DNA of 64,000 nt from Verrucomicrobium spinosum DSM 4136 = JCM 18804. GTDB lineage: Bacteria; Verrucomicrobiota; Verrucomicrobiia; Verrucomicrobiales; Verrucomicrobiaceae. The notes beneath the pieces are model-generated. The model was given only the letters and a program-made list of their open reading frames with translations, made no database searches and had not been told where the DNA came from. Each line of letters opens with the position of its first letter. Positions within the stretch are counted from its first letter, which is position 1. Shown here piece after piece: positions 46,177-52,102 of the stretch. The position numbers and the translations under genes are program-made. Location: the NCBI RefSeq assembly GCF_000172155.1, contig NZ_ABIZ01000001.1, positions 930,001 through 994,000 of the forward strand. The letters are read 5' to 3'.

Positions 46177-46665
46177 ATGGACGCTAAGAACCCGAATCTT
46201 TTCTATCTCTACGGACCTCCTGCCTCGGGGAAAAGCACGCTTCTGGTCTATTTGGCCCTGAACTGCCCAGACTGCACAACGATTGATCTGGAAGCGCTTC
46301 ATGATGGGGCAGACCGGGCGGCGTTCCCCCAATTGCTCCCATCTTATAGACACCAAAATCTAGTCTTCGTCGGAGCGGCGGACGTGAGCCCTGACTCTCT
46401 GCCTGCGGGCAGCAAGGTTATCGCGCTCATCCATTCAGACGTGGATGGGTATCTCAATCGAGTGTCACGCCGCGATGCGAAGAAAGCGAGGAACCGCAAT
46501 CAGAATGCTGCGGAACATTTTCTAGGCATCAAGGAGTACCTGAAGTATCATCCACCGTTCCTGACCATCGATCCCCTCGAGTATGAGGGACGTTTTGATG
46601 AGTTGGCCCTCGCTGTGCTGGCGAAGGCACGGGAAGCCTCCGTCAAGGACCCAGAAAACGCCTGA
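46177..46665 (+). CDS. Small P-loop NTPase/kinase-like protein
   Basis: This 162-residue protein begins with a hydrophobic strand and a P-loop, YLYGPPASGKST (Walker A at residues 13-21), followed by a possible Walker B/strand (NLVFVGAAD). A basic Arg/Lys-rich segment (RVSRRDAKKARNRNQ) may be a nucleotide lid or RNA contact. It fits small AAA/adenylate-kinase-like NTPases, but the family is unresolved. The ATG at 46177 was chosen so the P-loop is near the N-terminus; the longer ORF adds 61 unlikely residues. It is immediately before the large fusion gene, with 52 bases between. Confidence 0.72.
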   Translation: MDAKNPNLFYLYGPPASGKSTLLVYLALNCPDCTTIDLEALHDGADRAAFPQLLPSYRHQNLVFVGAADVSPDSLPAGSKVIALIHSDVDGYLNRVSRRDAKKARNRNQNAAEHFLGIKEYLKYHPPFLTIDPLEYEGRFDELALAVLAKAREASVKDPENA

Positions 46666-46717: not shown

Positions 46718-49700
46718 ATGAAAAGTCTATTAAATCGGCTCAAAATGTCTCGCAAGCGGAGCATGGAGGGCGTTCAGTGTCGATTCTTCGGCACCTCAAC
46801 CATCTATTTGCAAGGCGGCGTGTATGATCCACGGGACCCAACCCGAAGCTTCAATGTTGAGCTCCTTGATGCGGATACGGGTGAAGTGGTGGGGAAGTCG
46901 AGGGCGGACGGGAGATCTGCCAAGTCCGATGTTCCTCACGGGCACGGCTTTTCGCTTCCCATCCCGGAATCTTGGTTGAGCTCAGGGGAGGCGATCAGGC
47001 AGTTTCAATTCAGAGTTGTGGAGTCGGGGCAGCTCTTCCCGAAGGTGCGACGCGAGCTCCCGCTGGCCAGGATGCTCAAAGACTTCGAGCGTAGTTGTGG
47101 GCGGTCCGCACCGCTGGTGGCCGGGTTGCGAGATGCGGCTGTCAGGCTGGATGCGATCAAAGGCCCGGACCTGCTCGTCGTCATGACGCATGAGCTCACC
47201 CGGACGGGAGCTCCCATGATTGCGCTCAGCACGATACGTCATCTAGTGAGCAAGGATGGAGCGAGGGTCGTGCTGTTGACTCTGGGCACGGCTGGTAAGT
47301 TGTACCAGGAGTTCAGCGAGGTGAGCGAACTCATCGTGGAGAATCTGGGTGAGTGCCTTAAGCATGCGCTGCCAGAGACGCGCAAGTTTTTCAAGGTTCT
47401 TGCCACGGCCGCAGAGCAGCGAGTTGCCCTCAGCAACTCACTGTGTTGCGGTCAGCTGGCAGTCTTTTGCAAAGAGGCCGGATTCAAGGTGATATCCCTG
47501 GTGCATGAGTATCCTTATGCGTTCTCTCCAGACTGGGTTCAGAATCACTTCTCGGCAGTTGAGTCGGTGGTGTTTCCGTGCCGGCATGTGCATCAGAGCT
47601 TCTTGAAGCATGGTCCGGGACTCTTAACGGAGCCACACAGGTCTGAGCCTCTTAAAGTCTCCATCTTGCCCCAAGGGTGTTATCAACTAGAGCGCCCTCC
47701 CTTGGATACGAATGAGGCGGTGGACTTCGAAAAGCGATTTCGTGAGGAAAACTGCCTGGGTGCCGACAGCCGCCTGGTTGTTTCCTGCGGAACGCTGGAT
47801 TCGAGAAAGGGGTTTGACTGGTTTGCCAGTCTCATACGGCACTATGGGAGAACTTCGCCCAAGACTGGAACCACCCACTTCCTCTGGATCGGTGGGGGAG
47901 GGAGTCCGGAGTTGTTTGAGCACGCCCTTCATGACATGCGGGGTGATGGAGTGATCGGTCAATTCCACCATATCAGTGACATGGAGGACGTGCGCCTTGC
48001 CATGAGGTTGGCCGATGTCTTCCTGCTCTGTTCGCGCATTGATCCTTTCCCTAGCGTGGTGCTGGAGTCCTTTGCAATGGGGGTGCCCGTGGTCGGTTTT
48101 GACAGGGATCAAGGGTGCGCTGAGATGATCATGGAGACCCGATTCGGGAGGGTGGTGCCGTATCAGGATCTGACGGCTGCCACGACGGCCATTGACCACC
48201 TGCTGGATGGCGCGACAGAAGCCATGGACGTGCGTAAAAACGGACATGCTTTCGTCAGTGAGAACTTCTCCTGTCAGCAATACGCCGAAGGCATTGCCGC
48301 GCTGTTGCGTGGCGAAGCGCTGCCGCCAGCAAAGCCTTTCACGCTTGGGGGAGGCTCCGCCGTGAGAAGTCAATTGCCTGCCACGGCTGCTGGCGACGGG
48401 GCGAACGTGTCGCCTGCGGATGCGATCTCACGGGGATTGGACTTTCTTGCCGCTACCCAGTTTGCGGATGGAGAGTTCCCCACACTGATCTCCTCCCGGG
48501 AGTCCTTGGATGACGGCGAGCTGGACAGCTCACCATTCGTGACGGCGCTCATGGTGCACTCCCTCCGTTCCTGCCTTCCGCGTTCGCGGGCCATGGTGGA
48601 GCGCGCCCTGGCTTTCCTTGAGGGGCAGATGGAACCGGGTGGCGTCTGGCGCTACTACACCCCCAAGCAGTTCAAGCACTCCAGAATTCCTCCCGATCTG
48701 GATGACACGGCTTGCGTCGCCTTTGTGATGAAGGACAACGGTCGCAGTCTGCCAGACAACACGTGGGTTTTTGGAGCCAACCGTTCGCCGGAAGGCCTCT
48801 ATTACACTTGGCTCCAGCCGGGTGCGGCAAGTGGCGGGGGCGTGACGGCCTATCTCTCTACGCTAGAGGCTCTGGCCACTGTTCGCAGCCCCGCGAAGCC
48901 TCCCCGGCATACCGGGAATCCCCGATTCGCCCTGCCCAGAGACGTTGTGCCCGCCCGGGAGATTGACCCGGTGGTCAACGCAAATGTGGTGCTGTATCTC
49001 GGAGAGAGTGCGGACACCCAGCCGGCCATCTCTTACCTCAAGAATCTCGTGCTGGGGAACAGTGGTGAAATCAAAAGCGACTACTATGTTGATGACCTTG
49101 CGTTCTGCTACATGGTCGCGCGAGCGTGCGAGTGCAGTGCGCCGGGGCTGCGCGAAGTGGCAGGCGCTATGCGTTTCAGGATCGAGTCGCGTCTGGAGAA
49201 GTCGCTGGGAGAAGAGAAGCCTCTTGCTCTGGCGCTGGCTGGATGCAGCTTGTTGATCCTCTGTCCTGAGTCGGTCTGGGTGGACAGGGTGGCGGAGAGG
49301 ATCCTCGGGCTACAGTGCGAGAACGGCTCCTGGCCTCGTGAGGCCTTCTACCGTGGCCCCGCCGAGTTCTGGGGTTCTGAGGAGCTGACCACGGCATTCT
49401 GCCTTGAGGCGTTGGAGCGACACGCCATCGCACGGGGTGGGGTGACGTCCGGTGACGGTAGGGGATGCTGTCCACGCTTGAAGGAAACAATCTGGCTTGA
49501 TCCCGGTGCAGAAGCGTTCAGAAGGAACCCTTATCCCACCTACGCAGAGTTGCGCCAGCGTGAGCAGATCGTCTTCAACGAGTTTACGCAGACATGGCTT
49601 GTGAGCAGCCATGACCAGTGTCTCGAAGTGTTGAAGGATCCGGGCACCTTCACCACCCGGGGCACGTCTTTTGAAGAGACGCTGGTCGGGGCCGAAGGCG

Positions 49701-50668
49701 GGTCCCATGCAAGAGTCAGGGAGGTGGTGCGTGAGCTCTTTACGGCCAGGCGGCTACAGGAGCTGGAGCTCCTCGTGGGCGAGTGGGTGCCAAAGCTTTT
49801 TGCCGGGGCCAAGGGGCGGAGAACCTTCGATTTTTTGCACGAAGTGGCGGAACCGCTCCCCCTTAGGGTGATGATGTACCTGCTGGGGTTGGGGCAGGAA
49901 ATGGCGGATCAGTCGAGGGAGTGGACCCGCGCGATCCTTATGGCCAGCCCTGAACGGCATGATACCCTCTCCCAGTGCAGGGCCTACTTCCTGAAGCACA
50001 TTGAAAGCCTGCGCACCAAGCCAAACAACGTTCCATTGACGGCGATCATCTCCCCGGTGGATGACGGTGGCAGACTGACGGATGAGGAGATCGTGGATGT
50101 GTGCATGATCATCATGGCGGCCGCAGTTGTCACCACCACGGGATTCATCACGAATGCGACGGCCATCCTCGCGGACGATCCGGGGCTGGCCCAGCGGTTG
50201 CGGGAATGCCCCCAGGAAATCACGGTATTTGTGGAGGAAGTGCTCCGGTATGAGAGTCCCGTGCAGAACGTCTTCCGCTATGCCACGCGTGCCACGACTT
50301 TGGGCGGCCAGACCATAGCGCAAGGAGCCAGGGTGCAACTGCTTGTGGGATCAGCCAACCGCGATGAGGATAAAATGCCGGCGGCCGGGGCCTTGGATGC
50401 GTGCCGTCGTCCCAATCCGCATCTTGCATTTGGTCGTGGTGCACACCAATGTCTCGGCATGCAGCTCGCGAGGCTTGAGGCCAGGATCGTCATCCAGGAA
50501 CTGCTGAAACAACTGCCGGAATTCTCGGGCGACTGGCCCCGGTCCGTGCCTCCGTTGTCCAACCACTCCTTTATGCGTCTTGCGGACCGGATGGTCCTGG
50601 TCTTGGGCAGCGGTCTGCCAGCGAGTGCAGAGGAACAGCACGCAGCCTCACCCATGTGCCCCTCCTGA
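46718..50668 (+). CDS. Multidomain fusion: GT4 glycosyltransferase - terpene-cyclase-like toroid - cytochrome P450
   Basis: This 1316-residue single ORF carries four regions. (1) A beta-rich N-domain (about 22-115), like those at the start of large glycosyltransferases. (2) A GT-B/GT4 region (about 140-550) with HELTRTGAP at 158 and DPFPSVVLE, whose last residue is Glu450. (3) An alpha/alpha toroid (about 565-905) with DLDDTA at 660-665, matching the DxDD acid of class II terpene/squalene-hopene cyclases, and QW-like repeats QFADGEF (581) and QCENGSW (866). (4) A cytochrome P450 (about 920-1300) with ExxR at 1174-1177 and haem-ligand Cys1245 in FGRGAHQC. The I-helix has VT where most P450s have an acid-Thr pair. 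No frameshift or stop interrupts it. Cyclisation, oxidation and glycosylation of an isoprenoid are inferred. Confidence 0.9.
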   Translation: MKSLLNRLKMSRKRSMEGVQCRFFGTSTIYLQGGVYDPRDPTRSFNVELLDADTGEVVGKSRADGRSAKSDVPHGHGFSLPIPESWLSSGEAIRQFQFRVVESGQLFPKVRRELPLARMLKDFERSCGRSAPLVAGLRDAAVRLDAIKGPDLLVVMTHELTRTGAPMIALSTIRHLVSKDGARVVLLTLGTAGKLYQEFSEVSELIVENLGECLKHALPETRKFFKVLATAAEQRVALSNSLCCGQLAVFCKEAGFKVISLVHEYPYAFSPDWVQNHFSAVESVVFPCRHVHQSFLKHGPGLLTEPHRSEPLKVSILPQGCYQLERPPLDTNEAVDFEKRFREENCLGADSRLVVSCGTLDSRKGFDWFASLIRHYGRTSPKTGTTHFLWIGGGGSPELFEHALHDMRGDGVIGQFHHISDMEDVRLAMRLADVFLLCSRIDPFPSVVLESFAMGVPVVGFDRDQGCAEMIMETRFGRVVPYQDLTAATTAIDHLLDGATEAMDVRKNGHAFVSENFSCQQYAEGIAALLRGEALPPAKPFTLGGGSAVRSQLPATAAGDGANVSPADAISRGLDFLAATQFADGEFPTLISSRESLDDGELDSSPFVTALMVHSLRSCLPRSRAMVERALAFLEGQMEPGGVWRYYTPKQFKHSRIPPDLDDTACVAFVMKDNGRSLPDNTWVFGANRSPEGLYYTWLQPGAASGGGVTAYLSTLEALATVRSPAKPPRHTGNPRFALPRDVVPAREIDPVVNANVVLYLGESADTQPAISYLKNLVLGNSGEIKSDYYVDDLAFCYMVARACECSAPGLREVAGAMRFRIESRLEKSLGEEKPLALALAGCSLLILCPESVWVDRVAERILGLQCENGSWPREAFYRGPAEFWGSEELTTAFCLEALERHAIARGGVTSGDGRGCCPRLKETIWLDPGAEAFRRNPYPTYAELRQREQIVFNEFTQTWLVSSHDQCLEVLKDPGTFTTRGTSFEETLVGAEGGSHARVREVVRELFTARRLQELELLVGEWVPKLFAGAKGRRTFDFLHEVAEPLPLRVMMYLLGLGQEMADQSREWTRAILMASPERHDTLSQCRAYFLKHIESLRTKPNNVPLTAIISPVDDGGRLTDEEIVDVCMIIMAAAVVTTTGFITNATAILADDPGLAQRLRECPQEITVFVEEVLRYESPVQNVFRYATRATTLGGQTIAQGARVQLLVGSANRDEDKMPAAGALDACRRPNPHLAFGRGAHQCLGMQLARLEARIVIQELLKQLPEFSGDWPRSVPPLSNHSFMRLADRMVLVLGSGLPASAEEQHAASPMCPS

Positions 50669-50737
50669 CGTAGAGTGCCGCTGCGGATGGCTTCGGCAAT
50701 GCCGACCATCCCGCCGGGATGCGAAGTGATCTCACCC

Positions 50738-52102
50738 ATGATGACCTCCCAGTTTGCCAGTCAGATCAGGGCCTTTGGCCGGTTCGGAGAATGGTGGCGG
50801 TACAAAATCAGTTATTTGTTCGTACCATTCTATTTCCTGCTGCCGGGGAGCGGGGCTGATGTCAGCTTGGCATTGAAATCATTCGTTTTGCTCTTGGGTT
50901 ACTTCACCGCTGCGGCGGCATTCGGACACGTTATCAACGATTTGGGGGATGTTGAGGCCGACGAGAAAGCGGCCAAGGTGAACTCCTGCTCACAAGGGGG
51001 CAGGGTGCCGGCGTTGGTCACAGCTGTTTGTTTTGGGGTGCTGTCGATCATGCTCCTTTGGCTTGGCGGGGCTCCTTGGGCGGTGTTCGTGATGGCGTTT
51101 TTGGAGCTGGTCCTGTTTCTGGTTTACTCCTTCAAACCCCTGCGGTTGAAGGAATCAGTGACCGGGCTGTTGATTGACGCCGCCTATGCCCACGTGGTTC
51201 CTTTTGCGATCGCCACCTGGCTCACTTTTGAAGGGCCGGTGACGGCTCTTTACGCGGCGCTGTTCGCCTCTGCCATCGCCTGGCAGGGGATGGCAGGCTT
51301 GAGGGGGATCATCGGGCACCAACTGGAGGACTTGCTGGGGGACAAGGAGGCGGGGCTTCGCACGGCTGTGATTCAGATCGGGGCGGATAGGGCCAGGAGA
51401 TGGCTGCGTTATTGCATCATACCCGCTGAGGGGCTCTTTCTGCTGGCCACCCTGCTGTGGGCCCTGGTCCTGTCACCACTGCCGGTTCTGGCGTTGCTTG
51501 TTTACAGTGTGATCTGGGAGGTGAAGCGGCGGCGCCAGACACGGTCATCCCAGGGAGGGGTGGATCAGGCATGGGCAGGCTTCCTGGACCGTTTCTACAG
51601 GGAGTGGTTGCCGCTGGCGACCTTGGCGGCCGTGATCATCGCGGCTCCCAAGTTCTGGCCGCTGTTGGTCTTGCATTTGGTCCTCTTTCACATCTCCTGG
51701 GGCAGCAGGGCTCCCGGGAGCCGCCGGGCCATTCCGCCTGCAGTGGTTGATCATCTCTTTACCAGGGTCGAAAAGAAGGGGGGCATTTTCGAGGTGGAGG
51801 GCTGCTACCTCACCTCGCAGCTGACCACACGCACAGACATCAACATCATCCTCAGCGCATGGATCGATGGGGCGCAGGCGTCAGCAGAGCTGGCCTACGC
51901 GCCCAATCGATTCTCAGACTTTTACCGCAAGTATCACATAGAGGAGACACCTGTGAGCTTCACCATGAGAATAAAGATCCCGGAGGCCAAGGTGAAGGTC
52001 GGCAAGGTTGAGTTGACTCTGGTGGCGGCCTGGGTGAATCCGAAGGAGCGGGTGGAGCTTTTTTCAAAGATGTTGCGGTTTGACCGTGGGCAGCTTGTTT
52101 GA
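50738..52102 (+). CDS. UbiA-family membrane prenyltransferase with C-terminal extension
   Basis: This 454-residue protein has a UbiA-type membrane domain with several helices and both Asp-rich motifs: NDLGDVEAD (residues 67-75, the NDxxDxxxD Mg-diphosphate site) and DLLGDKEAG (198-206, the second DxxxD). These bind an isoprenoid diphosphate and transfer the prenyl group to an acceptor, or cyclise it. From about residue 335 a soluble, strand-rich extension follows (VEGCYLTSQLTTRTDINIIL), which is unusual for UbiA proteins. The start is uncertain: ATG at 50738 was used, with ATG at 50687 and GTG at 50675 also possible. It begins 69 bases after the fusion gene and is probably cotranscribed. Confidence 0.88.
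   Translation: MMTSQFASQIRAFGRFGEWWRYKISYLFVPFYFLLPGSGADVSLALKSFVLLLGYFTAAAAFGHVINDLGDVEADEKAAKVNSCSQGGRVPALVTAVCFGVLSIMLLWLGGAPWAVFVMAFLELVLFLVYSFKPLRLKESVTGLLIDAAYAHVVPFAIATWLTFEGPVTALYAALFASAIAWQGMAGLRGIIGHQLEDLLGDKEAGLRTAVIQIGADRARRWLRYCIIPAEGLFLLATLLWALVLSPLPVLALLVYSVIWEVKRRRQTRSSQGGVDQAWAGFLDRFYREWLPLATLAAVIIAAPKFWPLLVLHLVLFHISWGSRAPGSRRAIPPAVVDHLFTRVEKKGGIFEVEGCYLTSQLTTRTDINIILSAWIDGAQASAELAYAPNRFSDFYRKYHIEETPVSFTMRIKIPEAKVKVGKVELTLVAAWVNPKERVELFSKMLRFDRGQLV

Follow-up and report, generated by a model that had tools for sequence, protein, structure and literature searches.

In a 64,000-nucleotide stretch of Verrucomicrobium spinosum DSM 4136 (contig NZ_ABIZ01000001.1, positions 930,001 to 994,000; hereafter the window), a single open reading frame (ORF) without internal stops encodes a 1316-residue protein in which an N-terminal beta domain, a GT4 glycosyltransferase (GT) domain, an alpha/alpha toroid of the class II terpene cyclase type, and a cytochrome P450 follow one another in one chain (Table 1). 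The gene directly 3' encodes a UbiA-superfamily prenyltransferase, a constant neighbor that an earlier sequence-only reading of this DNA had overlooked.

Domain architecture and conservation of the fusion protein

Domain bounds were taken from profile matches, with the profiles built from the five orthologs themselves. Pfam placed Glyco_trans_1_4 (E = 1.8e-16), Glycos_transf_1 (E = 2e-14), and p450 (E = 3.6e-18) above cut-off on the fusion protein; no Pfam family matched the N-terminal beta domain, no Pfam model matched the toroid region, and none of the NCBIfam models listed scored above cut-off. The GT4 region is a GT-B domain bearing the E/D-x7-E motif of that family and contains HELTRTGAP (aa 158 to 166) and DPFPSVVLE (aa 442 to 450), the latter invariant in the five orthologs. 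The ExxR motif of the P450 lies at aa 1174 to 1177. The sequence-only reading had reported an uninterrupted ORF of 1316 codons with these motifs, together with DLDDTA and FGRGAHQC, and all of them were found in the domains to which it had assigned them. Its combination of GT4, terpene-cyclase-type toroid, and heme-type P450 in one chain is borne out by Pfam, profiles, and fold.

A search of 190 Verrucomicrobiales genomes with the toroid region yielded four close relatives (in genomes G142, G047, G093, and G043, all in one other family) and two weak matches (E = 4e-5 and 1e-3). The four relatives are open frames of 1336 to 1470 codons, 44 to 50% identical to the window protein in a five-sequence alignment, and locus reading and profiles gave the identical beta-GT4-toroid-P450 order in every one. 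The same proteins were present on contigs of metagenome-assembled genomes of Verrucomicrobiia/Verrucomicrobiales. A frame error or assembly artifact joining separate genes, which the sequence-only reading had named as a danger, is ruled out for practical purposes, because the unbroken order recurs without internal stops in four other, independently assembled genomes, with the UbiA gene in the same place, all domains conserved, and the two linkers (about aa 537 to 563 and 908 to 938) differing in length and sequence. Nothing was found in favor of such an artifact, and its probability is negligible.

The host genome holds one full-length copy of the fusion gene, and directed gene deletion has been described for this strain (PMC12283558). 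The locus is patchy, given that two 99%-complete genomes of the same genus are without it. A phylum-wide profile search of a sample of Verrucomicrobiota genomes turned up no other full-length toroid of the family; the remaining matches were weak and partial and are probably squalene-cyclase-like. The correlation between domains of pairwise identities among the five orthologs was too noisy to reveal coevolution.

Table 1. Features of the fusion locus and related genes (window positions unless a locus is named)
Feature	Position	Strand	Basis or remark
Fusion ORF	46718..50668	+	ATG start, 1316 aa; order beta domain-GT4-toroid-P450
N-terminal beta domain, aa 18-141	46769..47140	+	Own-ortholog profile
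GT4 glycosyltransferase domain, aa 149-550	47162..48367	+	Pfam PF13692/PF00534 above cut-off, own profile, alignment
Class II terpene-cyclase-type alpha/alpha toroid, aa 565-902	48410..49423	+	AlphaFold2 model, Foldseek, profile match
DLDDTA, aa 660-665, predicted catalytic acid D662	48695..48712	+	Invariance and alignment to squalene-hopene cyclase/AsDMS
Tyr790, aligned counterpart of catalytic Y427 of AsDMS	49085..49087	+	Profile alignment
Cytochrome P450 domain, aa 916-1307	49463..50638	+	Pfam PF00067, PDB P450 matches
FGRGAHQC heme-thiolate motif, aa 1238-1245, Cys1245	50429..50452	+	Five-ortholog alignment
UbiA-superfamily prenyltransferase with C-terminal extension	50675..52102	+	Pfam PF01040, motifs
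Small P-loop protein (GPPASGKST), just 5' of fusion ORF	46180..46665	+	Start codon uncertain
Beta-GT4 relatives with sulfotransferase-like domain	L065:5589-8189; L066:6202-9465		APS kinase near the L066/G059 copy

Fold and catalytic residues of the toroid

The AlphaFold2 model of the toroid reached a predicted local distance difference test score of 89.5 and a predicted template modeling (pTM) score of 0.91. Foldseek comparison with the PDB returned drimenol synthase first (E = 1e-12; template modeling [TM] score about 0.75), next 6ij1 (labelled Prenylcyclase), the monodomain cyclases 8pak/8paj, and MstE (TM score 0.70), and further down drimenyl diphosphate synthase, squalene-hopene cyclase (SHC), and lanosterol synthase. 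The best 38 matches are all terpene cyclases, and the first noncyclase is complement C4b at E = 3.6e-4, so that the fold search rules out the generic, noncyclase helical repeat that the sequence-only reading had allowed for. The toroid family profile likewise matched drimenol synthase (E = 4.9e-19) and SHC (E = 4.5e-18), and weakly MstE (E about 0.4).

In the profile alignment, DLDDT falls over DLDTT of the drimenol synthase AsDMS, whose residue numbers were mapped from the position of D333N, and over DVDDTA of SHC, while a YY pair falls over AsDMS Y426-Y427. Thirteen aligned toroids share invariant P94, D96-x-D98-D99-T100, T133-W134, N192, Y234, Q302, G306, and W308 (toroid numbering; adding 564 gives protein numbering), and Y226, which is Tyr790, is invariant in the nine toroids of UbiA- or P450-linked loci. 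On sequence and model, the toroid appears closest to class II terpene cyclases, and cyclization itself is predicted. The alpha/alpha fold is common to glycan-active enzymes as well (weak Foldseek matches to 3ren and 7qsj), and glycan genes abound in the loci of several relatives; a toroid that processes glycans or has a purely structural role is nevertheless very improbable, considering the 38 terpene cyclases that head the fold matches, the conserved DxDD and Tyr, and the constant UbiA partner.

AsDMS (PDB 9m7d-f, 9mhs) is a HAD-TCbeta enzyme that requires D331, D333, and Y427 and binds the diphosphate through R378, R380, R425, and R513 (PMC12365925). It carries a HAD phosphatase domain, whereas Pfam finds no HAD domain in the fusion protein, where the partners are GT4, P450, and UbiA. 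The toroid-family positions aligned with R380, R425, and R513 are not basic, R378 lies outside the aligned part, and the conserved basic positions of the toroids are elsewhere (81, 89, and 238). Because these diphosphate-binding arginines have no basic counterparts, the alignment suggests that the toroid substrate is perhaps not a free prenyl diphosphate, and the data do not support the isoprenoid diphosphate proposed in the sequence-only reading.

Linkage of the toroid to UbiA

In each of the five genomes, the UbiA gene is directly 3' of the fusion gene, and the UbiA subfamily profile matches exactly the same 5 of the 190 genomes that bear the toroid; these genomes are related, and the co-occurrence does not represent five independent events. 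The motifs NDxxDxxxD, YxxxPxRxK, and DxxxD are invariant across eight UbiA relatives. Toroid and UbiA form one polypeptide in Nostoc sp. C052, along with PhyH and TPR parts, and in Mangrovicella (L025:9866-12880), where repeats with a WYLxxYPD-type motif join them, and they are near neighbors in Novosphingobium.

A UbiA-type prenyltransferase is thus encoded together with a monodomain class II cyclase, as in the MstE-type pathway. MstE, merosterolic acid synthase (PDB 6sbb-6sbg), is a monodomain class II cyclase that acts on geranylgeranyl-dihydroxybenzoate (PMC9401909), a prenylated aromatic of the kind made by UbiA-type prenyltransferases, and it has the monodomain class II fold in common with the toroid. 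Unlike the toroid, it is unfused to a GT or P450, and the sequence similarity is weak. The constancy of the UbiA neighbor suggests a prenylated acceptor as the cyclase substrate. We considered that the toroid could instead make a cyclic prenyl diphosphate that the UbiA protein, as an intramembrane class I cyclase, ionizes to yield a plain terpenoid with no prenylated acceptor. UbiA-type intramembrane terpene synthases are known (PMC9835599), and drimenol synthase, the best match of the toroid in both sequence and fold, uses farnesyl diphosphate. The nonbasic counterparts of AsDMS R380, R425, and R513 make this route unlikely, and the UbiA protein retains both Asp motifs and the prenyltransferase YxxxPxRxK, although these motifs are compatible with a cyclase too.

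In G142 and G047, the UbiA protein has an extra C-terminal acyltransferase domain resembling those of polyketide synthases (PKS), with an SLGE nucleophile-type motif (L015:4373-6862 and L016:6558-8927), which is absent from the window UbiA, and a sulfotransferase gene adjoins the UbiA gene in both genomes. A type III PKS (Chal_sti_synt; L016:3235-4437) is encoded a few kilobases from UbiA in G047, where it might supply an aromatic acceptor.

P450 domain

PDB P450s match aa 937 to 1270 of the fusion protein at 4e-53. All five fused copies retain Cys1245, ExxR, and the I-helix Thr1139, and a domain with this sequence should bind heme. At the position before Thr1139, V or A replaces D/E in every copy (AAVVTT/AGxVTT/AGxATT). 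An I-helix acid-alcohol pair is common in P450s and not universal, the acid usually being Asp or Glu. The chemistry of the domain may be unusual.

We weighed whether the P450 domain is something other than a normal monooxygenase, acting as a partner or activator of the GT or in another heme reaction. Its fusion to a GT is consistent with this, as are a weak score for the NCBIfam P450-derived GT activator (TIGR04515; 109 bits against a cut-off of 343) and the loss in all five fused copies of the I-helix acid, which the standalone P450 relatives in G131 and G099 retain (AGEETT/AGHETT). Such a role is quite unlikely because every fused copy conserves the heme Cys, ExxR, and the I-helix Thr. In EryCII/DesVIII-type GT activators, this Cys is generally missing. 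The TIGR04515 activators resemble the fusion protein in tying a P450 fold to a GT, but here the heme Cys is intact; with that Cys and a score far under the cut-off, an activator role is disfavored and is kept as a minor rival.

Toroid relatives in other phyla and their glycan context

The toroid family occurs in at least four bacterial phyla (Verrucomicrobiota, Pseudomonadota, Cyanobacteriota, and Acidobacteriota) and is UbiA linked in three of them; the Acidobacteria stretch, truncated by a contig end, showed no UbiA. The toroid loci of Nostoc and Acidobacteria encode ABC transporters bearing Wzt_C, that of Novosphingobium encodes an ABC-2 permease and ATPase pair, and all three contain sulfotransferases. 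The Acidobacteria locus also encodes a P450 joined in one chain to an acyltransferase-like part. Toroid-free beta-GT4 relatives in G105 and G059 end in a sulfotransferase-like tail (a weak Pfam match in G105; recognized by eye in G059).

This context raises the possibility that the GT4 domain works on a growing cell-surface glycan, the terpenoid being a polysaccharide cap or anchor and not a small glycoside, a reading that overlaps the terpenoid-tailoring pathway proposed below and differs in the final product. The Wzm/Wzt-type transporters (two with Wzt_C) and sulfotransferases of these three loci argue for it, as do the sulfotransferase-like tails in G105 and G059 and the APS kinase near the latter. 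It is possible but doubtful, as the stretches read around the window ORF and its four orthologs contain no exporter.

Proposed pathway

We think it reasonably probable that the fusion protein tailors a (mero)terpenoid in cooperation with the neighboring membrane protein UbiA. The latter would move a linear prenyl chain onto an acceptor at the membrane, and the toroid would close rings on that chain in the manner of MstE. The heme P450 would then oxidize the ring system and GT4 would add a sugar from a nucleotide sugar, the enzyme classes of these last two being assigned from sequence and their substrates and order proposed; the product would be a cyclized, oxidized, glycosylated prenyl compound. 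The proposal draws on the toroid fold, its DxDD and Tyr, the UbiA linkage, and the presence of three catalytic domains with intact key motifs in five species. It also draws on the loci of Nostoc, Novosphingobium, and Acidobacteria, with their ABC exporters and sulfotransferases, on the sulfotransferase beside UbiA in G142 and G047, and on the precedents of MstE and of fungal EfuA/FsoA. The latter are triterpene cyclase-GT fusions in pathways with separate P450 genes (PMC12667498), so that they and the fusion protein both have cyclase and GT in one chain and P450s in the pathway. They differ in being fungal, with no UbiA reported and with 2,3-oxidosqualene as the substrate of FsoA; moreover, they are named cyclase-GT, whereas here the GT precedes the cyclase and the P450 is additional.

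Given that cyclase and UbiA are found in other phyla together with Wzm/Wzt-type exporters and sulfotransferases, the products of the family at large are probably terpenoid glycoconjugates that are exported and often sulfated. A more speculative extension, to which we give only limited credence, is an undescribed cross-phylum pathway that puts UbiA-derived, class II-cyclized, oxidized terpenoids on exported, often sulfated surface glycans, with the Verrucomicrobiales having fused GT, cyclase, and P450 as an assembly-line protein.

Several points weigh against the tailoring pathway. It is predicted from genes, product and activity included. Besides the absence of an exporter described above, no sulfotransferase was seen among the ORFs around the window fusion gene, and no gene for making an acceptor is consistently present next to the locus, the type III PKS being found near the G047 locus only. 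The missing I-helix acid in the five P450 copies makes ordinary hydroxylation uncertain. Fungal terpene cyclase-GT fusions act in nonconsecutive steps (PMC12667498), and therefore fusion need not mean coupling. The full-length AlphaFold2 model (1174 residues) has a pTM of 0.40 and disordered linkers, so that neither domain arrangement nor channeling can be judged from it, and the conversion without release of intermediates envisaged in the sequence-only reading is not supported by the data. Of that interpretation, the three-enzyme chain is supported, and the diphosphate substrate and the unreleased intermediates are unsupported.

Literature searches, which covered few subscription papers, found no description of a GT-cyclase-P450 chain or of a UbiA-linked toroid family, in keeping with the earlier view that this domain order was undescribed. 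We regard the architecture as genuinely new and assembled from known enzyme kinds. The fusion protein marks a small, patchy family of bacterial cyclase loci, provides a case in which to test directly whether ring closure, oxidation, and glycosylation are fused in nature, and is a lead toward new terpenoid glycoconjugates, pointing to an undescribed route to cyclized, oxidized, sugar-bearing terpenoids.

Other observations

An Rfam scan of the window gave zero matches. The P-loop domain encoded upstream of the fusion ORF is conserved, and in G043 it reads in frame into the fusion ortholog. More distant toroids have no UbiA nearby in Chloroflexales and Methanoperedens. The Chloroflexales copies (L029-L032) are standalone DLDDT toroids of about 310 aa in a conserved neighborhood with a SpoIIE-domain protein and an unassigned protein of about 328 aa. 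An archaeon, "Candidatus Methanoperedens" (L027:9776-11041), also has a member of this toroid family, and the hydrophobic segment at its N terminus suggests that this toroid is exported or membrane anchored.

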